Source: Syntrophomonas sp. (GTDB lineage Bacteria; Bacillota; Syntrophomonadia; Syntrophomonadales; Syntrophomonadaceae). Taken from it: a stretch of 64,000 bases of DNA. Positions within the stretch are counted from its first letter, which is position 1. Each line of letters opens with the position of its first letter. The translations under genes and the position numbers were made by a program. The DNA is taken from assembly GCA_016841245.1 (NCBI GenBank), contig JAENZN010000005.1, positions 62,001-126,000 of the forward strand, read 5' to 3'. Under the pieces are notes generated by a model. It had not been told where the DNA came from. It did no database searches and was given only the letters and a program-made list of their open reading frames with translations. Below, in pieces: positions 23,666-47,390 of this stretch.

Positions 23666-26179
23666 CTGACTATCCAAGATATTAATATTATTTTAAAAGA
23701 CAGAATTCTGGTCTTGGATGGAGCAATGGGAACTATGCTCCAGAATCAAGGCCTGCAGCCCGGACAATGCCCGGAATTGTTTGGAATTGAGAACCCGCAG
23801 GTACTGGCTGAAATACATTACCAGTATGTTCAGGCTGGTTCTGACATTATTCAGACCAATACTTTCGGCGGTAACCGCTGTAAACTATCTGAATACGGGT
23901 TGGCTGAACAGGTGCAGGAAATAAATACTGAAGCAGTTAAGATAGCCCGGCAGGGAGCCGGCCATAAGGCCCTGGTCGCTGCTTCGATTGGTCCCACCGG
24001 TAAGCTGCTCTATCCCATGGGGGATGTTGATTTTGATTACTTGTATCAGGTTTTCTCTGAACAGATGTCGGCTTGTGAAAAGGCCGGAGCGGACCTGATT
24101 TCTATAGAAACTATGACTGATATTGGTGAGATGCGGGCTGCGCTTATTGCCGCCCGACAGAATACCAGTCTGCCGGTTATAGCTCATATGACTTTTGAGA
24201 ACAGTGGCCGGACCATGATGGGAACCGATCCACTCACCGCCCTCATTATTCTGGAAGCTCTGCAGCCTCTGGCCATTGGCGCCAACTGTTCCGGCGGTGC
24301 TAGAGAACTGTTGCCAGTCATTAAGATGATGGGTCGGCATTCCAGTATCGTTCTGTCGGTTGAACCTAATGCGGGTTTGCCCCAGCTGGTTAACGGTCAA
24401 ACAGTTTTTCCCGATTCTCCGGAAGAGATGGCCGAATATGCCCTTAAACTTCGGGATGCAGGTGCCAATATTATAGGTGGATGCTGTGGCAGTACCCCTT
24501 ATCATATCCAGGCCATGGCCAAAGCGGTTAAAGGACTCACTCCGGCCCATAGAAACAGGGGCAAGCTCAGTGCCTTTGCTTCCCGCAGCAAGCATGTGCT
24601 GCTGGGAGAAGACCAGCCACTGGCGTTCATTGGAGAACGGATAAACCCAACCGCTCGGAAAAAACTGGCTCAGGACATAAAGGACGGCAGTATGCAGATG
24701 GTGGTAGAAGAGGCCAGAAAACAGTGTGAAAAGGGAGCGCCCATTCTGGATGTCAATATGGGAGTTCCAGGTATAGACGAGGCTGCGGCCATGAAAAAGG
24801 CGGTTATAGATATACAAACAGCAGTCGACATGCCTGTTTCCATCGATTCGGTAAACCCGCAGGCGGTAGAAGAAGGGCTGAAAAACTTTGTGGGACGGGC
24901 TCTTATAAATTCAACTACCGGGGAAGAAAAGCACCTTGAGGTCATACTGCCTCTGGCCAAGAAATACGGGGCAGCAGTTCTGGGCTTATGCCTGGACGAA
25001 AATGGAATACCTGATAAAGCAGAAGATAGAGTAACAGTTGCCCGCAACATTTACAATAAAGCTATCGAATATGGCCTGCGGGATGAAGACATATATATCG
25101 ACTGCCTGGTCAAAACAGCCAGTGCTGAGCAGGGTCAGGTGATGGAAACACTAAAGGCTCTGCAGACGGTAAAAAGACAACTGCCGGTTAGGACAGTGCT
25201 GGGTATTAGCAATGTTTCTCATGGCCTGCCGGCCCGGGAGATATTGACCTCAGCTTACCTGGCCATGGCCTGGGCAGCCGGACTAGATTTACCCATTATG
25301 AATCCATTTGATGAAAAAGTAATGGATATTACCCGGTCAGCAGCGGTGCTGCTTAATCGTGATGTTAATTGTACCGGGTATATTGAGAAATATAAAGATT
25401 ATAAAACAGGAGGTACCGATCATACCGGGCTGCCGAGACACCCGGTGTGTTCGATGTGCAACATACCAGATTTAATGGCGGAAAAATCCTTGATGGCTGA
25501 TATTCCTAAGGCCAGGGCAGGTATGGAAGAAAAACCACCAGAATCAAACGTTGGTCAGCTTGTGCAGCAGGCAGTTCTAAAAGGAGATCGAGATAATATT
25601 GAGTCCCTGCTGAGCCAGGCTCTATTTGAAGAAAAAATAGATGCTCTGCAGGTAGTAAATACTTATCTTATTCCAGGGATTGAAAAAGCCGGGCAGTTAT
25701 ATGATGAAAAGAAATATTTTCTGCCCCAGCTGATGATGGCTGCTGATACAATGAAAAAAGCATTTGCTTTTATTAAACCGCATCTAAAAGGAGATGAAGG
25801 GAAAAGCAGCGGAGTAATCGTTATGGCCACAGTAGAAGGAGACATTCATGACATAGGTAAAAATATAGTATGTGTCCTGCTGGAAAATTACGGCTTTAAA
25901 GTGATAGACCTGGGCAAAGACGTGAAGGCGGCTGATATTCTGGATGCGGCTGTAAGTCAAAAGGCAGATATTATTGGCTTAAGCGCCTTGATGACTACCA
26001 CCATGCCCCGTATGCAAGAAGTTATTGCTGGGGTTAAAGATAAAGGTCTTAAATGCAGGGTAATCGTCGGAGGAGCAGTTTTGAATCAGGATTATGCTGA
26101 TCAGATTGGTGCTGACGGATATGGGGAAGATGCTCGTAAAGCGGTATTAGTTGCCCAGAGTCTATTAAAGCTTTATTAA
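23666..26179 (+). CDS. metH: Cobalamin-dependent methionine synthase, lacking the reactivation domain
   Basis: About 837 residues. Homocysteine-binding barrel (to about 290) with zinc Cys residues in 'GANCSGG' and 'GGCCGSTPYHI'; pterin-binding barrel (about 310-560: 'FIGERINPTARKKL', 'ILDVNMGVPG'); cobalamin cap and B12 domain with 'GDIHDIGKNIV' supplying the axial His. The C-terminal SAM-binding reactivation domain of E. coli MetH is missing. The first ATG/TTG (TTG 23714) falls inside the conserved 'LVLDGAMGTML'; the frame extends to a CTG at 23666 ('TIQDINIILKDRILV') with AGGGGGGAG six bases before it, which I take as the start. First gene after the SAM-I switch. Confidence 0.92.
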   Translation: MTIQDINIILKDRILVLDGAMGTMLQNQGLQPGQCPELFGIENPQVLAEIHYQYVQAGSDIIQTNTFGGNRCKLSEYGLAEQVQEINTEAVKIARQGAGHKALVAASIGPTGKLLYPMGDVDFDYLYQVFSEQMSACEKAGADLISIETMTDIGEMRAALIAARQNTSLPVIAHMTFENSGRTMMGTDPLTALIILEALQPLAIGANCSGGARELLPVIKMMGRHSSIVLSVEPNAGLPQLVNGQTVFPDSPEEMAEYALKLRDAGANIIGGCCGSTPYHIQAMAKAVKGLTPAHRNRGKLSAFASRSKHVLLGEDQPLAFIGERINPTARKKLAQDIKDGSMQMVVEEARKQCEKGAPILDVNMGVPGIDEAAAMKKAVIDIQTAVDMPVSIDSVNPQAVEEGLKNFVGRALINSTTGEEKHLEVILPLAKKYGAAVLGLCLDENGIPDKAEDRVTVARNIYNKAIEYGLRDEDIYIDCLVKTASAEQGQVMETLKALQTVKRQLPVRTVLGISNVSHGLPAREILTSAYLAMAWAAGLDLPIMNPFDEKVMDITRSAAVLLNRDVNCTGYIEKYKDYKTGGTDHTGLPRHPVCSMCNIPDLMAEKSLMADIPKARAGMEEKPPESNVGQLVQQAVLKGDRDNIESLLSQALFEEKIDALQVVNTYLIPGIEKAGQLYDEKKYFLPQLMMAADTMKKAFAFIKPHLKGDEGKSSGVIVMATVEGDIHDIGKNIVCVLLENYGFKVIDLGKDVKAADILDAAVSQKADIIGLSALMTTTMPRMQEVIAGVKDKGLKCRVIVGGAVLNQDYADQIGADGYGEDARKAVLVAQSLLKLY

Positions 26180-38071: not shown

Positions 38072-39712
38072 ATGATCTTTCGGGGTATGAAGAGATTGAA
38101 AAATATTTCTGAAAAGGATGGTAAGATAAATAGCGGGAATATTTCCGAATTGTTAAACCATGAGATTTTAACTCCCGAGCAGGTTAAGGATATACGGGTA
38201 TCATCTGTCCTGGAGGAGAATCTCCGCTTTTTACAGGACCTGCTGGGTCATAACAAAGATGTCATCATTCGTCGCATTCTTATCGGGACTTCTCCCCGTA
38301 TCCCATCGGCATTAATATATATTGAAGGTCTGGCAGACAAAGCCATTCTTAACAACAACATCATGAAATCCTTAATGATCGAGATTCCTGAGGAGAGTTG
38401 TGGATCTGACCCGCTCTATCTCCGCGAGTATTTGCTTAAGACGGCTCTGACCATTTCTAACCTAAAAAACACCCGTCAAATGAACGAAATAGCCATCAAC
38501 ATACTATCCGGGGATGTGGTCCTCCTGGTAGAAGGGGTAGATGATGCAGTCATCATCAATATTCGCGGGCACAAGGAGAAAGCGATCAGCGAGCCGGAAT
38601 CCGAGATACTGGTAAGGGGACCCCGGGAAGGCTTTACAGAAACACTGGAGACGAATATCAGCCTGATACGTCGAAAATTAAAAAGCCCCAATCTCTCTTT
38701 TGACCATATGCTTATCGGCAAAATAACCCTGACTGAAGTCTCGGTGGTATATTTAAAAGGTCTGGCTTCACCTGATCTGGTGGAAGAGGTGAAACAACGG
38801 CTGCAGCGTATTAAAATTGACGGAATACTGGAAAGCGGCTACCTGGAAGAATTTATTGAAGACAATCCCTATTCGCCTTTTCCGCAAATGCATCATACCG
38901 AACGTCCGGACCGAATCGTGGCAGGTCTCCTGGAAGGTAGAGTCGCTATAATGACGGATGGGACTCCCTTTGTACTGATAGTGCCTGTGGAAATCACATC
39001 ATTCCTAACTTCACCGGAGGATTATTACGAACGCTATTACCTGGGCACCCTTATTCTGTGGGTGAGATATATTTCATTTGGCGTATCCCTGCTGTTACCA
39101 TCCTTCTATATTGCCATTACCACCTTTCACCAGGAAATGATCCCAACCCGACTACTGATCAGCATAGCCTCATACCGGCAGGGACTGCCTTTTTCCACTC
39201 TGCTGGAAGCCCTGCTTATGGAGTTGACTTTCGAAGTTTTGAGGGAAGCAGGAACCCGCCTGCCCCGGGCGGTAGGTCAGGCGGTAAGCATTGTAGGTGC
39301 TCTGGTTATCGGCCAGGCAGCAGTTCAGGCTGGAATCGTCTCGCCCCTGATGGTGATTATAGTAGCATTTACCGGGATAGCCTCTTTTACCAATCCTTCG
39401 TATAACCTGGGGATTACTATGCGGTTTCTGCGTTTCCCGCTCATGTTTCTGGCCGGGATGCTGGGGCTGTTCGGTGTAATGTTTGGCATCGTTATGATAC
39501 ATATTCACCTGGCACAAATTCGCTCCTTCGGGCTTCCTTATCTGGCTTCGCTATCTCCCCTGCATTGGTCCGATCTTAAAGATGTACTGGTACGGGGACC
39601 ATGGTGGAGTATGGATACCCGTCCATGGGAACTCGGTGAAAGGAACCGGCGCCGCCAGATTCCGGGGTTAAAGCCGTCACCACCCAGGGCTGATAAGGCA
39701 GGGGGGAATTAG
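38072..39712 (+). CDS. Spore germinant receptor subunit A (GerA/GerKA family)
   Basis: 546 residues: a soluble N-terminal part of about 300 residues, then five membrane helices ('FGVSLLLPSFYIAITTFHQE', 'GLPFSTLLEALLMELTFEVL', 'LRFPLMFLAGMLGLFGVM'). The family blocks 'GTSPRIPSALIYIEGLADK' and 'ISFLTSPEDYYERYYLG' region are clear. Sits in the spore inner membrane and binds or relays germinants with B and C. Stop overlaps the start of the next gene. Confidence 0.94.
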   Translation: MIFRGMKRLKNISEKDGKINSGNISELLNHEILTPEQVKDIRVSSVLEENLRFLQDLLGHNKDVIIRRILIGTSPRIPSALIYIEGLADKAILNNNIMKSLMIEIPEESCGSDPLYLREYLLKTALTISNLKNTRQMNEIAINILSGDVVLLVEGVDDAVIINIRGHKEKAISEPESEILVRGPREGFTETLETNISLIRRKLKSPNLSFDHMLIGKITLTEVSVVYLKGLASPDLVEEVKQRLQRIKIDGILESGYLEEFIEDNPYSPFPQMHHTERPDRIVAGLLEGRVAIMTDGTPFVLIVPVEITSFLTSPEDYYERYYLGTLILWVRYISFGVSLLLPSFYIAITTFHQEMIPTRLLISIASYRQGLPFSTLLEALLMELTFEVLREAGTRLPRAVGQAVSIVGALVIGQAAVQAGIVSPLMVIIVAFTGIASFTNPSYNLGITMRFLRFPLMFLAGMLGLFGVMFGIVMIHIHLAQIRSFGLPYLASLSPLHWSDLKDVLVRGPWWSMDTRPWELGERNRRRQIPGLKPSPPRADKAGGN

Positions 39713-40942
39713 ATGATGATCCGTCGCATTTTCGTGACGTTCTTGATAATAATGCTCACCATATCATCGGGCTGCTGGGATCGGCGTGAACTCGATGATC
39801 TGGGCATTGTGAATGGAATTGGGATAGAATCTGCCCCCGGGGGAAAGATCCGTATAATTGCTCAAACTCTAAATACTTCGGCAATAGTCAGGGGTACAGG
39901 GGGAGGGGGCGCTGGAACCACCTTTCAAAAGGCTTACCGTAATACGGTTGCCGAAGGGAACAGCCTCCAGGACGCCATTGATAATCTAACCAAGGTTACT
40001 CCTATCCAGCGTTTTTTTTCTCACAACAGCGTAGTTATTGTCTCCGAGGAACTGGCCCGGAAACAGGGTATTAGGTCTATTATGGATTTCCTGGAGCGGA
40101 ATCCGGAACTTAGACTGGACCCGTGGCTGATTATCGGCAGGGGATCGCTGGTGAGCCTCATGGATCAACCGGGAAGAATTACACTTATACCTTCCCAGCG
40201 GATTGATAATTATATGAAAATTCATAAGATATCATCAACCTATGCACCCCTCAATGTGGGGCAATTCATTCGTTCAATACAAAGTCCCTGCTGCCAGCCA
40301 TATACCGCGGTGATAGAAACCGGGCCTAATGAGTCCCTTTCCGATGAACCGGGTCATGACCTGGCCAGTGGTGTAGTCCCAGAACCGCTTAATCAGATTA
40401 TAGTAAATGGTACGGCGGTATTCAAAGAGGATAAAATGGTGGGTTGGTTAAATGCTCCCGAGAGTCGGGGTTTGCTTTGGGTAAGGGGAGAGGTGGAGCA
40501 GGGCTACATTAATTTCTCCATACCTGGAGAGCAGGATAGATTTGCAGAGACCAGCATACTGAGATCATCGAGCAAACTTGAGCCCAGTATAAAGGACGGG
40601 CAGATTATGATAACCGCCACCATTAAAGTAGATACTTACCTGATAGAAGTGCAGGGGAATATAGATCCGGGAATAACGGAAGAATTAAAAAAACTGGAAG
40701 ACGCACAGGATGCTGAAATCAGCAAGGAAATTAAAGCAGCTTTAAAAAAGGCGCAGGGGGAGTACCATGCGGATATATTCGGTTTCGGAGCAGCAATCCA
40801 TCGCGGTTACCCCGCAGAATGGAAGCAGCTGGAAGCACAGTGGGATGAGGCTTTTCCCGGATTGCAGGTGGAAATAAAAGTTGAATCCAGCATCCGTCAT
40901 ACCTCTTTGATAAACAAACCTGCTGAGGCGGCCAGGCAGTAA
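39713..40942 (+). CDS. Spore germinant receptor lipoprotein subunit C (Ger(x)C)
   Basis: 409 residues. Lipoprotein signal with lipobox at 'ISSGCWDRRELDDLGIVNGI', the family hallmark. The rest contains the three-domain Ger(x)C fold ('SHNSVVIVSEELARKQG', 'IVNGTAVFKEDKMVGWL'). Anchored on the outer face of the spore inner membrane. Adjacent to subunit A without a gap. Confidence 0.94.
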   Translation: MMIRRIFVTFLIIMLTISSGCWDRRELDDLGIVNGIGIESAPGGKIRIIAQTLNTSAIVRGTGGGGAGTTFQKAYRNTVAEGNSLQDAIDNLTKVTPIQRFFSHNSVVIVSEELARKQGIRSIMDFLERNPELRLDPWLIIGRGSLVSLMDQPGRITLIPSQRIDNYMKIHKISSTYAPLNVGQFIRSIQSPCCQPYTAVIETGPNESLSDEPGHDLASGVVPEPLNQIIVNGTAVFKEDKMVGWLNAPESRGLLWVRGEVEQGYINFSIPGEQDRFAETSILRSSSKLEPSIKDGQIMITATIKVDTYLIEVQGNIDPGITEELKKLEDAQDAEISKEIKAALKKAQGEYHADIFGFGAAIHRGYPAEWKQLEAQWDEAFPGLQVEIKVESSIRHTSLINKPAEAARQ

Positions 40943-40965
40943 CATATGCACAGGGAGGAATCGGG

Positions 40966-41196
40966 TTGGTTATTGTGATCGCACTGGTGTTTGCAGGAAT
41001 CATAGTCTTGCAGGCCGGACCGCTGTATAAAAAGAAAATGTGGCGTGAACTAGGGGTTTTTAGCATCTTGATGCTTGTTGCAATGGTCTATGTTTATGAC
41101 TGGCTTCTGGAATGGCATCTTCCTACTGTTAAAACACTTATGGAAGTTGTATTTATACCGGTAACGGTGTTCATGGAGAACCTGCTGACCCCTTAG
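40966..41196 (+). CDS. Small two-helix membrane protein, probable germinant receptor D subunit
   Basis: 76 residues with helices at about 1-17 and 27-45 and a hydrophobic tail. TTG start after AGGGAGGAATCGGG. Germinant receptor operons often carry such a 55-80-residue D gene between the large subunits. Sequence similarity is not strong enough to claim by eye, so the call rests on size, topology and position between C and B. Confidence 0.65.
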   Translation: MVIVIALVFAGIIVLQAGPLYKKKMWRELGVFSILMLVAMVYVYDWLLEWHLPTVKTLMEVVFIPVTVFMENLLTP

Positions 41197-41224
41197 ATGA
41201 CGACTAACAGATAGACGTGCAGGG

Positions 41225-42346
41225 ATGAAAGGATTAAAAGGATTGAAACAGGAAAGTGGTATTTATAAAACCGATACATATTCTATCATGGGATTGCTGG
41301 TAAATACCGTAGGTACTACTGCCGCTTTATTTATTCCCCTTTCGGCAGTGAAAATCGCCCAACAGGATGGGTGGATGACAATGCTCATTGCCATGCTGGG
41401 CGCAGTCTATCTGGTTTACGTGGTTTACCGCCTGGGTACACTTTACAGCGATAAAATCTTTATCGAGTATCTTCCCTTGATAATAGGAAAAGCAGGAGGT
41501 AAGATACTGGGTCTGGCCTATATATTATTCTTTTTCTATTTAACATCGTCCGTGATTCGAGAAGCGGTCGCCCTGTTTTTTGGAACCGGTGTCTTCAAGA
41601 TTACTCCAGAATTTGTTATCCCGCTGTTCTTGATTATAGCCACAACCTATGCGGTTGTTTTGGGATTTGAAGTCATTTGCCGGGTGTTAAGTATCTACTG
41701 GCTGGTGATAAGCACCACACTTATCGTTTTTTACCTTCTGGTATTTCCATATATGGATTTCGCTGCTTTGCTTCCGGTGGGAGAAGCGAGTATCTTAACC
41801 TTGCTAAAAAGCGCCATGATCCCGCAGGCCTATATGGGGGAGCTATTTATACTGGCCATGCTTTCCCCATATATCAGAACAGCCCGAACAGTTCTTATCG
41901 CCGGCAATATCAGCACTGTAATAATTATCTGTCATATGACGGTTATAACAATCTCCATGGTAACCATCCTGGGAGTGGATACTCCTGCTCGTTCTCTTTA
42001 TGCTCCGTTTTTTCTGGCCGATATTATCCAGCCCATCGGTATCAAGGCATTGCTTGTTTCTATTTGGATGCTGGCGTTATGGGGAAAAATCGTAGTTTTT
42101 CAGTTTATTGTAACTGATGGGATATCAAAATATTTCAACCTGAAACAATATCAAAGCATAATAATCCCGGTTGCCATCCTTCTTCTGGTATTCTCCTTTA
42201 CTTTTTATCAAAACAACACCGATGTACTGGAATCGATCCCCCGGACTTTCCCCGGAGTGGCACTGTTCTTTGAGTATTTAATCCCTACTTTATTATTGAT
42301 CATTGCTCTAATTAGATCAAAGATCGGGGCATCCTCATCGCAGTGA
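41225..42346 (+). CDS. Spore germinant receptor permease subunit B (GerB family)
   Basis: 373 residues, ten helices of the APC-type endospore germination permease family: 'TYSIMGLLVNTVGTTAALF', 'VIREAVALFFGTGVFKITP', 'PQAYMGELFILAMLSPY'. Thought to hold the germinant pocket. Ribosome site for the ATG is weak (CAGGG directly ahead), so coupling to the D gene is possible. Confidence 0.93.
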   Translation: MKGLKGLKQESGIYKTDTYSIMGLLVNTVGTTAALFIPLSAVKIAQQDGWMTMLIAMLGAVYLVYVVYRLGTLYSDKIFIEYLPLIIGKAGGKILGLAYILFFFYLTSSVIREAVALFFGTGVFKITPEFVIPLFLIIATTYAVVLGFEVICRVLSIYWLVISTTLIVFYLLVFPYMDFAALLPVGEASILTLLKSAMIPQAYMGELFILAMLSPYIRTARTVLIAGNISTVIIICHMTVITISMVTILGVDTPARSLYAPFFLADIIQPIGIKALLVSIWMLALWGKIVVFQFIVTDGISKYFNLKQYQSIIIPVAILLLVFSFTFYQNNTDVLESIPRTFPGVALFFEYLIPTLLLIIALIRSKIGASSSQ

Positions 42347-42560
42347 ACATTGCTTGCATTATCTGGTCGGTATTATGGAGGATAGTAATCCGGCACCGAT
42401 TTCTGACCATCATCTGGTAATTATTTGGAAAGACGGATATCCCTTCTTTCTTACTGCCCAAGGTTTGCCTTTTATGTTTTCCCATTTTTTTCTTACCTGA
42501 TCGACTCACATAGTCTATTTTTTTGGTAAATAATATGACTGAGCGAAAGGAGGTGAAAAT

Positions 42561-43055
42561 TTGAAGAAAGCGGCACTGAGTCTACTGCTGTCTTTTGTTT
42601 TAGCGGCAAGCATGTATGGTGGATATTCTTTTGCTCAGACAGATGACGCAATTCAACCAGAAGCCAAGCTGGAAATGAAAGCTGAAGAGATGGGTATCAG
42701 TGTTGATGAACTAAAGGCTCAATGCAAAGCTGAGCGGCAGGAAAAGCTGGAACAGAGAGCCAAGGAGATGGGCATTACCGTTGATGAACTGAAGGCCCAA
42801 ATGAAAGCTGAGCGGAAAGAAAGGCTGGAACAGAAAGCCAAAGAGATGGGCATCACTGTTGATGAACTGAAGGCCCAAATGAAAGCTGAGCGGCAGGAGA
42901 GACTGGAACAGAGAGCCAAAGAGATGGGCATCACCGTTGATGAACTGAAGGCTAAAATGAAAGCTGAGCGGCAGGAAAGATTAGAACAAAAAGCCAAAGA
43001 GATGGGCATTACCGTTGATGAACTGAAGGCTAAAATGAAAGCCAAACATGAGTAA
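42561..43055 (+). CDS. Secreted protein of 26-residue tandem repeats
   Basis: 164 residues. Signal peptide MKKAALSLLLSFVLAASMYG..., predicted cut near 'SFA-QTDD'. Then five units of consensus 'KEMGITVDELKAQMKAERQE' plus 'RLEQRA', 26 residues each, the last one cut short ('KMKAKHE'). Each unit is a charged amphipathic helix; 'MGITVDELKA' recalls the DUF2680-like helices of Firmicute secreted proteins. TTG start after AAAGGAGGTGAAAAT, an excellent site. Function unknown; likely extracytoplasmic. Minus-strand frames over it are artefacts of the repeats. Confidence 0.75.
   Translation: MKKAALSLLLSFVLAASMYGGYSFAQTDDAIQPEAKLEMKAEEMGISVDELKAQCKAERQEKLEQRAKEMGITVDELKAQMKAERKERLEQKAKEMGITVDELKAQMKAERQERLEQRAKEMGITVDELKAKMKAERQERLEQKAKEMGITVDELKAKMKAKHE
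42693..43043 (+). repeat. 78-bp tandem repeat array inside the secreted protein gene
   Basis: The Gly codon of 'MGI' recurs at 42693, 42771, 42849, 42927 and 43005, a strict 78-base period. Units 2 to 5 are nearly identical in DNA, unit 1 more diverged, pointing to recent expansion or gene conversion. Confidence 0.9.
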
Positions 43056-43114
43056 GTAACTATTGGTTTTTCATGAACTCTGCAGCAGACAGAATAACAT
43101 CACTCATCAGTTTC

Positions 43115-43150
43115 AGCCTGTAGACCAAGCAAGTCGGCAGGCTTTTTTTA
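43115..43150 (+). terminator. Terminator after the repeat protein
   Basis: AGCCTG/CAGGCT stem with TTTTTTTAT. 43151-43487 beyond it is AT-rich and shows no feature I recognise. Confidence 0.65.
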
Positions 43151-43487
43151 TGGTTTTAAGGGAGCTGCTCAAATGTAATTTTCAAAAAACAATCTGTTCA
43201 CCTCCCTCTTGGCTTTGGAACATTTAAAAAACATCATATTGATCTTTAGATTACGGAATAATTAAATGGTATCATATTGAGGACAAAATAAATGTAGACT
43301 TTTACCAATACGTCCATATATTCCTACTGCATTGTTTTTGAATAATTTTTTGTTATAAGAGGTGTGCAAAAAAAGATTGATAAGTAAGATATTAATATTA
43401 TTGGTAAAATGTCTTATCTGCTCGAATAAATATATTTACTTAAAAATGTTATCGATAACATAATGATGTAAAAAATTAACAAAGTTC

Positions 43488-43517
43488 TTGCCACTTTATA
43501 TGGCCAGGGTATATAAT
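43488..43517 (+). promoter_or_regulatory. Promoter of the candidate structured RNA
   Basis: TTGCCA, 18-base spacer, TATAAT. The nearest downstream frame has no ribosome site. Confidence 0.7.
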
Positions 43518-43521
43518 AAAA

Positions 43522-43738
43522 ATGCAAGCTGATAACCATATGGTTAATTTGTCCCGCGGAGAAGTCTGCTGGTCATCTGAGTTCAGTGGTGGTCTATTGG
43601 CTAAGGGGTATGCATTATCTTTGATGGTGTACAAAAACGATGAAACAGCAATGTGCCAGTTAGTGTACACGTGTCTCTCAGCTTGCACCCTATCTAGATA
43701 TTAAAAGACGCAGTCCGGGGGACGGTGTCTTTTTTTAT
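43522..43738 (+). ncRNA. Candidate structured small RNA, about 210 nt (6S-like?)
   Basis: A good promoter lies just upstream, and an intrinsic terminator ends it (43705-43738: AGACGCAGTCC/GGACGGTGTCT, then TTTTTTTAT). The 5' TGCAAGCTGA (43523-43532) is perfectly complementary to TCAGCTTGCA (43678-43687), closing a long rod. Inside are AACCATATGGTT and GTGTAC/GTACAC pairings. Size, closing helix and own terminator recall 6S RNA, but I cannot confirm that family. A 60-codon frame across it lacks a ribosome site. Confidence 0.5.
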
Positions 43739-44063
43739 ATACTTTATGAAAGCGTATGGATGATTCAATCGTTATATTAAATAAGAAAACAGCTTGGGGA
43801 TGAAGTCTTAAGGTTAGCGCAGGGGTTAAGGCGATTCGAAGAGCGGGGATTTAACTTTTCTAATCACTAAGCGCAAGACCACTCAGCTAACTTACATTTA
43901 AGAGCTAAGACCGGCCTCAAGCTTTATTAAGCCTTCAGCCCCCCTCAGTCATTTTTCATGAGTGATTGTGGCCGCGGCCATGGGGGGTTAAGATGGAACA
44001 AGCTTCCTGTGATAATAAGAATAATCCTTAATAGACTACTGGTTAATAAGCCTGGGGAGGGAT
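43739..44063. other. Spacer without recognised gene
   Basis: Contains a GC-rich inverted stretch GGCCGCGGCC near 43970. 'GGAGGGATATG' at its end is the ribosome site of the next gene. Confidence 0.35.
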
Positions 44064-45683
44064 ATGATGTCGAAGAGCAATTATGATCTGCTGCTGCAGA
44101 TAGACGAAATTTTATTGAACAAATCACTGGCCGCCCTGTATTACTCTGGTTTCCTGGCCCTGGAGGGAGAATACAGTTTTGTAGAAGGCATTCCCGCAAG
44201 CCTGCATGATTTCACCAAATTTTCTTATAAGATCCGCATGAAAAATGAACCTTTGATAGACTTAAGAGGAAGAGATCAGGTTTATATCAAGTTCATGGTG
44301 GAGTTAAAACTTGTTGTCCTGACCGGGATTGTATTGGAATTTGATGCCTCTTTCTATGCTTACACCAAAATTGTATTTGATGCGATTAACAGGAAAATGA
44401 TCTTCGATTTAAGCAATGCCAGGATCACCGACTTATATATCAATGATACCTATCGCTTTCATAAAAAATTCATAGATAATATCAATGAAGTGCTGGCAGT
44501 CTTATTGTCAGCCTATCTGACCGAAGATCGCCAAACCATTGAAATCCCCCTGATCCTTCAACAGTTGGAACTTCCTATGATGCCTGCCGGCAATGCTTAC
44601 GAATTGCCAGTCAGAATGGGGGATGTATTAATCTATAATAATCGCCTGCTGATTATGGGGATCAACTTTTTTAACGAGGCTGCCGAGGACATATCTGATA
44701 TGCAGGATTTAAGCGGCGGCAATGAGCTATATATCAACTTAAAAGAGCAAACCCTGAAAGAGGTTTTTGATTTCTGGTGGGATAACACCGAATATGAAAA
44801 ATGTGAAGACTTTTCCGGAAGTTTTCCCATCAACAGCGATTCCTGGTGGGAAAAGAGCGTTGATATCCTTGCCCGGCTGGTCAGCCTGGGATTTATTGAA
44901 ACAAAAACCAGTTACGATAATCTGTTATGTAATTATGATGGTCTGGTCCAAGTGCTGGAAAAGCCTGACTTCGAGTTCGGTGAGGGGAACAAAGTACTTC
45001 TCAATTCGCTGAAGATCCAGGTTCGGTTTAAAGCATCGTTCACCGCTGAGGTGATCAAGGATATTAAACTTGATACCAGTTCTTTCATCCCCGATCGGCT
45101 TACCCCCTGGGAGGATGATAAGCTGTTGAAACATCGGGAGGAATCCAAAGAGATATTAAATCTGGAGCAAGAGTTGGAGCTGTACATATCCCAGGCAGAG
45201 GGAATCATCAAGCTGAATGAGAACAGTAATCTGGTGATAGAAATTGTTAAAGCCGATATTAATATCGAAATGGGGGATAAGTGGTACCATAATCTGTCCG
45301 AAAAGGCTGTTAATTATATAATAGACCTGCTGGAGCAGAAGGTTCTGGAAAAAATCCCGGATCTGGTCATTTCCCCCAACCTGCTTTTATCCCGGCAGGA
45401 ATTAGCAGGCTATACCATGCAGGTCTCCACCCATTACATCTCTTTTGATAATGATGAACTGGCCCTGACTTTGAATATAGGTATAAACGAACTTATGAGC
45501 AAGGCGGTACCGGTTCCTATGTATATCGCCAACCAACGCACTAAAAAGATTCATAGCTTTGACTGCCCATCTATTGAAGATATCGAGATGGAAAACCGAC
45601 TCGGTTTTTATGTGCTTTATGAAGCATTGAAAGAGGGTTACTCGGCCTGCCAGGCGTGCATCGGCGCCAGCAAGCTGCTTTAA
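44064..45683 (+). CDS. Large paralogous protein 1, TULIP/P47-like with C-terminal Ada-like metal motif
   Basis: 539 residues, no signal peptide or membrane helix. Starts 'SNYDLLLQIDEILLNKSLAA LYYSGF'-like (split here), a pattern seen in clostridial P47/OrfX-type lipid-binding TULIP proteins, and is otherwise beta-rich with alternating polar and hydrophobic residues. The last 50 residues read 'KIHSFDCPS' ... 'GYSACQACIG': H-x3-C and C-x2-C at the spacing of the Ada/nuclease tail metal site. Strong ribosome site GGGGAGGG. 18 bases from its paralogue. TULIP assignment is inference; the tail motif is seen directly. Confidence 0.55.
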   Translation: MMSKSNYDLLLQIDEILLNKSLAALYYSGFLALEGEYSFVEGIPASLHDFTKFSYKIRMKNEPLIDLRGRDQVYIKFMVELKLVVLTGIVLEFDASFYAYTKIVFDAINRKMIFDLSNARITDLYINDTYRFHKKFIDNINEVLAVLLSAYLTEDRQTIEIPLILQQLELPMMPAGNAYELPVRMGDVLIYNNRLLIMGINFFNEAAEDISDMQDLSGGNELYINLKEQTLKEVFDFWWDNTEYEKCEDFSGSFPINSDSWWEKSVDILARLVSLGFIETKTSYDNLLCNYDGLVQVLEKPDFEFGEGNKVLLNSLKIQVRFKASFTAEVIKDIKLDTSSFIPDRLTPWEDDKLLKHREESKEILNLEQELELYISQAEGIIKLNENSNLVIEIVKADINIEMGDKWYHNLSEKAVNYIIDLLEQKVLEKIPDLVISPNLLLSRQELAGYTMQVSTHYISFDNDELALTLNIGINELMSKAVPVPMYIANQRTKKIHSFDCPSIEDIEMENRLGFYVLYEALKEGYSACQACIGASKLL

Positions 45684-45701
45684 AGGGGAGGAGAGGAGAA
45701 C

Positions 45702-47390
45702 ATGAAATCAGCCGGTTACGATATAGTAGTCTTATTGAATGAAAAATTTTTGAATCAAGTCACCGGAGCTTTATTCTACAATGGTTTTCTGAGAATCAAT
45801 GGCTCTGTAAAATTATACGAGGAGCTGGACCAGGAAAGCCTGGATAAGATACCGGAGAGCTTGTATCGCTTTATGCTCATCAATTACCGGATGAAGCTGA
45901 ATTATGAACCTTCCATTGACTTCCTTCCCCCGGTCAGTCCGGATGATCCTGCCCGAGTAAGGATACATACTGCCCTGCGGGTTTATTTCTGGCTCTGGGA
46001 CGGACTGGAAATTAAATTTGATGCCAATGTGTCCCTGGTAGCAGGAGTGGAAATAGATAGCAAGACCAATCAGATGATGATAGATTTTGCTCATTCCGAT
46101 ATCGAGGCACTGGCCGTGAAATACCGGTATAGTATGGAGCAAACCGTCACCTTGAAGCTGGACCAGATTATGGAAAATGCGGTTCGGGCCTATCTGAGTG
46201 ACCAGAACAATTGTTTCAGCTTCAACCTGCCCAGCATCAACCCGCTGCTTCCATATATGGATGATATACCGGAGAATTACCTGCCCCTGAGTGTGCGTTC
46301 CATAAAAACCCTGGATGCTACCACTTTGGCTATGGCTGTCAATGTCCAAATCGATGACTATGAGGGCGGAGACGAACAGCAGTTAAGCAACTTCGCCCGC
46401 AACTGCAGTGCCGCAGTAGCCGTTTCCGAGATTGCCATGTATAAGGTTTATGACTTTTTCTGGGAAAGAACCAACGGGGACAAGTGTTTCAAATTCAAAA
46501 AAAGCTTCGAGAGTGAGACTCTAAATGACGTGGTGAATGTGATCGGCAAAGTGGTAGATATTACCCAGCGCATAGTCACAGAAATCGCTACCCTGGGTTT
46601 TGTGGAAACTCACTTTGAGATGAAGGGTATGAGGTTTGAAGTAGGTGCGGATGTTAAACTTTTGAGCAAACCGGAATTCGATCTGATGCCGGACAACAAA
46701 GTGAAAATAAAGAAGCTAAATACCAATATCATTTTCAGCCTTAAAGTGTTTTTGGATGTTGAATATTCGGTGGAGATCGATCCAACCGGTTGGTTCCCTG
46801 ATATAATACCGGATTACGAAGTAGTGAATGACCGGGTGGAGGTAAAGATCTTTGAAATGCATGTGCCGTTCTTCAATATGCAGTTGAAAAAAGGTGTTGG
46901 TAAGATAGTCCTGGATGATGCCACCAATACTTTGCAGATCAAAATCGAACAGCTGGATCTGTACTGGGATTTCATAGCTTTCACCGACTGCCCGTTTCTG
47001 AATTTTCCGGAATGGCTCTTTAATAAGATACTGGATCTGTGTGAATCAAGCATAGCCGATGCAATTCCCCCGATAGTTGTGACTCCATCTTTCACGGTGG
47101 ACGTTCCTCTGGTGGACTGGGATCTTAAAATTGAAGGCAAAAAGCTGACCATCGATCCTGATGAAGTGACTCTGGCAGCTGATATATACTTTGCAGAACT
47201 AAAAAAGGATATTCCTCATGTGCCCAAGTACATAGTCAATATTAATAATAGGGAGATACACAAGATAGGCTGCGATTCACTGATGGATACCTATGAAGAG
47301 CACCAGCGCGGTTATCATCTCTTAAATGATGCGGTAAACCGGGGCTATGACGGATGTAAACGTTGCCTGCCCGCTTATCATACTAAGTAA
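45702..47390 (+). CDS. Large paralogous protein 2, TULIP/P47-like with C-terminal Ada-like metal motif
   Basis: 562 residues, same layout as its neighbour: 'GYDIVVLLNEKFLNQVTGAL' plus 'FYNGFL' at the N-terminus, 'AVSEIAMYKVYDFFWE' matching 'LKEVFDFWWDNTEYEKC' in paralogue 1, 'TLGFVETHFE' matching 'SLGFIETKTS', and the tail 'EIHKIGCDS' ... 'GYDGCKRCLP'. Identity between the two is low overall, so the duplication is old. GGGGAGGAGAGG precedes the ATG. The pair is probably co-transcribed and may form a heteromer. Function unknown; lipid binding is only suggested by the fold guess. Confidence 0.55.
   Translation: MKSAGYDIVVLLNEKFLNQVTGALFYNGFLRINGSVKLYEELDQESLDKIPESLYRFMLINYRMKLNYEPSIDFLPPVSPDDPARVRIHTALRVYFWLWDGLEIKFDANVSLVAGVEIDSKTNQMMIDFAHSDIEALAVKYRYSMEQTVTLKLDQIMENAVRAYLSDQNNCFSFNLPSINPLLPYMDDIPENYLPLSVRSIKTLDATTLAMAVNVQIDDYEGGDEQQLSNFARNCSAAVAVSEIAMYKVYDFFWERTNGDKCFKFKKSFESETLNDVVNVIGKVVDITQRIVTEIATLGFVETHFEMKGMRFEVGADVKLLSKPEFDLMPDNKVKIKKLNTNIIFSLKVFLDVEYSVEIDPTGWFPDIIPDYEVVNDRVEVKIFEMHVPFFNMQLKKGVGKIVLDDATNTLQIKIEQLDLYWDFIAFTDCPFLNFPEWLFNKILDLCESSIADAIPPIVVTPSFTVDVPLVDWDLKIEGKKLTIDPDEVTLAADIYFAELKKDIPHVPKYIVNINNREIHKIGCDSLMDTYEEHQRGYHLLNDAVNRGYDGCKRCLPAYHTK

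Follow-up and report, generated by a model that had tools for sequence, protein, structure and literature searches.

Closest described systems

The rod-shaped 6S RNA imitates an open promoter by means of a large central bubble; sigma-A RNA polymerase is its binding partner, and the RNA acts as template for product RNA. raiA RNA is a stand-alone RNA of about 200 bases. A third type of system to be considered comprises riboswitches and attenuators that terminate transcription, such as the SAM riboswitch. Species of Syntrophomonas are fatty-acid degraders, and in titles and abstract openings we found little on RNA regulation in this genus.

We analyzed a stretch of 64,000 nucleotides from Syntrophomonas sp. 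(contig JAENZN010000005.1, positions 62,001 to 126,000; "the window"), in which a stand-alone structured RNA of a housekeeping type such as 6S had been predicted from the letters of the sequence. Genome comparisons indicate, with high confidence, that the locus encodes a real, conserved and structured non-coding RNA of one genus that belongs to no known family. The kind of mechanism that we propose for it is known, and the RNA family is absent from Rfam; the interest of the locus lies in a well-conserved RNA without such a family.

Locus anatomy and predicted fold

The features of the locus, in window positions, are as follows.

43488-43517, + strand: sigma-A type promoter, TTGCCA-18-TATAAT, 11 of 12 positions to consensus, kept in three homologues; the flank upstream of it is not conserved
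43523-43736, + strand: predicted structured non-coding RNA, 5' end placed from the promoter and 3' end from the terminator; conservation above that of four-fold sites
43523-43532, + strand: closing helix P1, 5' strand; 10 Watson-Crick pairs, 8 of the 10 invariant across four sequences
43533-43546, + strand: hairpin P2 (TAACC-ATAT-GGTTA), invariant
43550-43575, + strand: hairpin P3, 9 pairs, with consistent one-sided changes at two pairs
43611-43631, + strand: hairpin that holds the sole compensatory pair (G-C in G004 in place of A-U), plus one half change
43667-43686, + strand: 5' part of a candidate antiterminator that excludes P1 and the terminator alike; pairings 43667-43670 with 43725-43728, 43672-43679 with 43717-43724, and 43683-43686 with 43710-43713
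43678-43687, + strand: closing helix P1, 3' strand, doubling as part of the candidate antiterminator
43703-43736, + strand: intrinsic terminator, a hairpin (43703-43733) and a U run (seven T)
44064-45683, + strand: first gene of the operon that follows the RNA; fold matches of a low-confidence model make it TULIP-like
45702-47390, + strand: second operon gene, a distant paralogue with 25% identity to the first

The promoter, the closing helix and the terminator of the original prediction were all confirmed. The promoter is the best among 10 promoter-like sites in a scan of positions 42500-45000; shuffled sequences average 6.4 sites, so a promoter-like site as such is no evidence. Its counterparts in the three homologues (G003, G001 and G004, the order kept below) score 12, 10 and 10 of 12; all four carriers have TATAAT as the -10 box and a -35 box that starts with TTG. 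The perfect pairing of P1 was equalled between the two ends by 10 of 20000 letter shuffles. The terminator hairpin is present and is unlisted by a simple terminator scan, and an intrinsic terminator sits between the RNA domain and the gene in every carrier.

The folding energy of the window copy is unremarkable relative to shuffles (z -1.5), and relatives fold better (z -3.44 for G001, -2.51 for G004). The RNAalifold prediction comprises P1 with two hairpins next to it, a long arm in the interior, and the terminator; the predicted folds are multi-branched. On the RNAalifold structure 98.5% of cells pair, versus 34-45% when the structure is slid. P1 together with the terminator is the minimum-energy fold of all four sequences. 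The minimum-energy folds of the window copy and G004 differ in the inner part and share only P1, P2, P3 and the terminator. The covariation check against homologous intergenic regions gave one pair that changes on both sides (in the hairpin 43611-43631), which is not significant for four close sequences, as 133 of 500 shuffles had as many. In the window's own minimum-energy fold, positions 43626-43632 are predicted to pair elsewhere, in competition with this hairpin.

Conservation and coding potential

Over 43522-43738 the RNA is 95, 91 and 83% identical to G003, G001 and G004 (207/217, 199/219 and 182/219 alignment columns). The corresponding identities are 33/84, 39/80 and 25/92 in the upstream flank and 25/59, 49/56 and 15/58 in the downstream flank, which G001 retains. 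At four-fold sites of the next gene, identity is 144/173, 112/162 and 66/132 (83, 69 and 50%). By this comparison, conservation of the RNA lies well above that of neutral sites, and the pattern looks like that of a functional transcript. The predicted non-coding RNA with a promoter and a terminator of its own is thereby well supported. That the locus is a remnant, or intergenic DNA conserved by chance without RNA function, would accord with the non-significant covariation, but identity falls outside the promoter and terminator and exceeds that of four-fold sites inside. We consider this explanation very unlikely.

The predicted lack of a translated frame needs qualification. A 60-codon frame on the + strand (43522-43704) and a 70-codon frame on the - strand (43476-43688) both overlap the RNA, and three of the four species keep the + frame open, which speaks for a small protein gene. 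In G004, the most distant relative, the ATG of this frame is lost and two single-base insertions break it; the RNA is therefore judged to be non-coding. A two-base indel at 43671-43672 occurs in all three relatives, and substitutions by codon position (2/3/2, 6/5/2 and 12/9/7) show no excess at the third position. The start codon also coincides with the expected transcription start, leaving no room for a ribosome site. A small protein gene on either strand is thus extremely improbable, and the comparison did not reveal the conserved protein frame that the original prediction had named as the contrary outcome.

Relation to 6S, raiA and other Rfam families

The proposed search of Rfam (6S, raiA, others) gave no family that matches the RNA. 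Neither 6S (RF00013) nor raiA (RF03072) matched in 43200-44000, even at E 5. The raiA model also found nothing anywhere else in the genome; the same search matched no control genome either. One regular 6S lies elsewhere in each of the five genus genomes, and the only match in the window's genome is at C37:396287-396462. Against this 6S, a covariance model built from the four homologues (R1) gave no match, the best score being 5.0 bits. The predicted folds of the RNA lack the 6S-type rod with its large central bubble.

A diverged copy of 6S, or a member of another Rfam family such as raiA, would account for the size, the stand-alone anatomy and the closing helix. The missing matches, the regular 6S elsewhere in all five genomes, the low score between R1 and that 6S and the multi-branched fold speak against it, and we give this explanation hardly any credence. 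As judged from model and sequence comparison, the RNA is not 6S. The assignment to housekeeping RNAs such as 6S was not supported, also in view of an occurrence in four of five genomes of one genus.

Distribution

A DNA search of 61 relatives matched six genomes, four of which, all Syntrophomonas (the window's genome, G003, G001 and G004, among five genomes of the genus), were taken as real. The other two matches (G051 and G029) covered only 32-34 bases (E 0.001-0.0035) and were taken as chance. R1 recovered the same four carriers in 54 family genomes and in 63 class genomes (overlapping sets) and, from a sample of 398 phylum genomes, the three carriers that it included; the model found nothing else outside the genus in these sets. 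Partial matches of R1 in G015 (E 0.10) and G037 (E 0.046), at 16-17 bits, were likewise taken as chance. Within the genus, G002 had no match to the RNA even at E 10. The RNA is single-copy, with one match per genome by R1.

A pattern scan of genome contigs returned four records, three of them from Syntrophomonas relatives (labelled Syntrophomonas sp. or Syntrophomonadaceae). The fourth, a Parcubacteria contig, had a best model score of 7.1 bits and was dismissed as chance. The viral contigs, plasmids and phages searched gave no match. Among the genomes searched, the RNA is thus limited, as far as these models detect it, to the genus Syntrophomonas.

Association with a downstream operon

In all four carriers the RNA lies directly upstream of the same gene and on the same strand (44064-45683 in the window and its orthologues in the others, which are 94, 85 and 73% identical), and the distant paralogue comes next in all of them. 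Both operon genes and the RNA are missing from G002. The first gene occurs in the same four of five genus genomes, and nowhere else in the 54 family genomes or the 398-genome phylum sample.

Upstream of the RNA the carriers differ. G001 and G004 have a divergent MaoC-like gene there, the window a gene for a 164-aa repeat protein, and G003 an extra gene fragment between the MaoC-like gene and the RNA; in G003 the upstream side is rearranged almost up to the RNA promoter. This fragment (L002:1189-1445), which by eye resembles the end of a HAD-type phosphatase, adjoins the promoter of the RNA in G003 alone. The 164-aa protein of the window (42561-43055) consists of near-identical repeats (KAKEMGITVDELKAKMKAER), and their number differs from that in G001. 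Farther upstream, germination genes for GerA, GerAC and a spore permease occupy 38072-42346.

The protein encoded by 44064-45683 had no match by sequence in Pfam, NCBIfam or PDB. Its predicted structure has a mean pLDDT of 46. In a Foldseek search with this model the six best matches were all TULIP lipid-binding proteins (CETP, LBP, BPI and P47; E 1e-7 to 1.5e-4). The first operon protein thus appears TULIP-like and resembles lipid carriers, as far as Foldseek matches to a weak model can indicate. The tandem paralogues of 44064-47390 are confined to the genus in the genomes searched, and in both a His/Cys cluster at the C-terminus ends with C-x2-C.

Between the terminator and the gene, the window and G001 carry a repeat of about 200 bp (43790-43995) that G003 and G004 lack. 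Its two other copies in the window's genome are at C24:13240-13445 (83%) and C8:34293-34500 (75%).

Alternative pairing and proposed transcription attenuation

We favour the reading that the RNA is a transcription-attenuating leader of the TULIP-like operon. It is our best reading, preferred to that of an independent small RNA, and we give it about an even chance of being correct. RNA polymerase would start at the sigma-A promoter (43488-43517) and transcribe about 213 bases, with P1 zipping the two ends of the RNA together. Once P1 is in place, the terminator (43703-43736) would form and transcription would stop before the operon. A trigger (small ligand, protein or partner RNA) would open P1, and its freed 3' strand and the adjacent UCUCUC would then pair with the terminator, so that transcription would continue into the two downstream genes. 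What the analysis shows is a conserved non-coding RNA, its tie to one operon, and the existence of an alternative pairing by which P1 and the terminator are both excluded; that the RNA is transcribed and read through, what acts as trigger and which way control runs are parts of the scheme that we infer.

Conservation of the RNA well above four-fold sites, the operon's constant position downstream while the upstream side differs, and the shared occurrence of RNA and gene all argue for such a leader. Descent alone could also keep RNA and operon together in four related genomes. No other sigma-A-like promoter was found between the RNA start and the gene in G003, G001 and G004, which makes the RNA's promoter the only such site before the gene in three of the four species, a point in favour of a leader. 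In the window there is one weak promoter-like site (43988-44016) between RNA and gene, overlapping the end of the repeat of about 200 bp; this site, and the presence of the repeat between terminator and gene in two species, weigh against a leader.

The P1 3' strand and the neighbouring UCUCUC can pair with the loop and arms of the terminator. Averaged over the four sequences, the energy of this pairing is -19.4 kcal/mol; 1000 column shuffles gave -12.3 (sd 2.0) and matched or bettered it twice. The P1-3' stretch ranks first among 49 stretches of the RNA body offered to the terminator. Both results support attenuation. With letter shuffles of single sequences, 221 of 1000 were as good as the window, 3 as good as G003, 60 as good as G001 and 2 as good as G004. 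In the same test 7 of 1000 shuffles equalled the SAM riboswitch of the window, and 180 of 1000 equalled the 6S RNA of its genome. The single-sequence shuffles thus support an attenuator in G003 and G004, support it weakly in G001, and do not support it in the window's copy, whose pairing is at chance level. The SAM riboswitch (RF00162; 23482-23581, 92.5 bits), which served as positive control, has an evident antiterminator and lies upstream of a gene at 23714.

The energies also tell against the leader in part. The fold with P1 and terminator is more stable than the best terminator-less fold by 10.0 (window), 7.8 (G003), 13.9 (G001) and 4.9 (G004) kcal/mol, versus only 1.6 kcal/mol for the SAM control; the switch would therefore be set strongly "off". 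When the P1 5' strand was blocked in the whole RNA, the predicted terminator probability was 0.28, 0.39, 0.998 and 0.58 (window, G003, G001 and G004), a mixed result. No covariation was found within the antiterminator among the four sequences, which is a further point against it.

These observations can also be read as those of an independent small regulatory RNA, always terminated and sealed by P1, that would act in trans by base pairing or protein binding and would adjoin the operon through shared descent. A start site at the foot of P1 followed by a strong terminator, a minimum-energy fold that contains P1 and terminator in all four sequences, the tolerance of repeat insertions between RNA and gene in two species and the weak antiterminator of the window all fit such an RNA. 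It would leave the conserved alternative pairing unexplained, and it agrees less well with an operon that lacks a sigma-A-like promoter of its own in three of four species and with the joint absence of RNA and operon from G002. We regard it as a serious possibility, somewhat short of an even chance. The "stand-alone" character of the original prediction is likewise doubtful, given the constant site before one operon and a 3' end that can pair with the terminator. The leader may be ancestral and weakened in the window's species, or the RNA may act alone and the alternative pairing be due to chance.

A more specific proposal is that the RNA represents an undescribed riboswitch class, in which a domain of about 165 bases would sense a metabolite (perhaps lipid- or CoA-related) and control the tandem pair of TULIP-like, lipid-binding proteins by transcription termination; we think this rather unlikely. 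If the RNA is a leader, it would help to show how these syntrophs regulate an operon for lipid handling, and as an orphan riboswitch candidate it would be of a size that permits direct testing.

Comparison with known systems

The RNA shares with 6S RNA (RF00013) a length in the range of about 180-210 bases, a closing helix, and its own promoter and terminator. It differs in having no sequence or model match to 6S, in its multi-branched predicted fold, and in the location of the genome's one 6S elsewhere. With raiA RNA (RF03072) it shares a length of about 200 bases and a stand-alone arrangement, but the raiA model matches neither the locus nor the rest of the genome. The product of 44064-45683, not the RNA, resembles the TULIP proteins P47, BPI, LBP and CETP by fold match (Foldseek E 1e-7 to 1.5e-4); on the other side stand a model pLDDT of only 46 and no sequence match in Pfam, NCBIfam or PDB.

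Transcription-terminating riboswitches and attenuators such as SAM (RF00162) differ in that the RNA described here has no Rfam match or known ligand, comes from four genomes only, and has a P1 and terminator far more stable than the alternative. What it has in common with them is a sigma-A promoter, a large sealed domain with a closing helix, a terminator, a candidate pairing alternative common to the P1 3' strand and the terminator, and a same-strand operon downstream.
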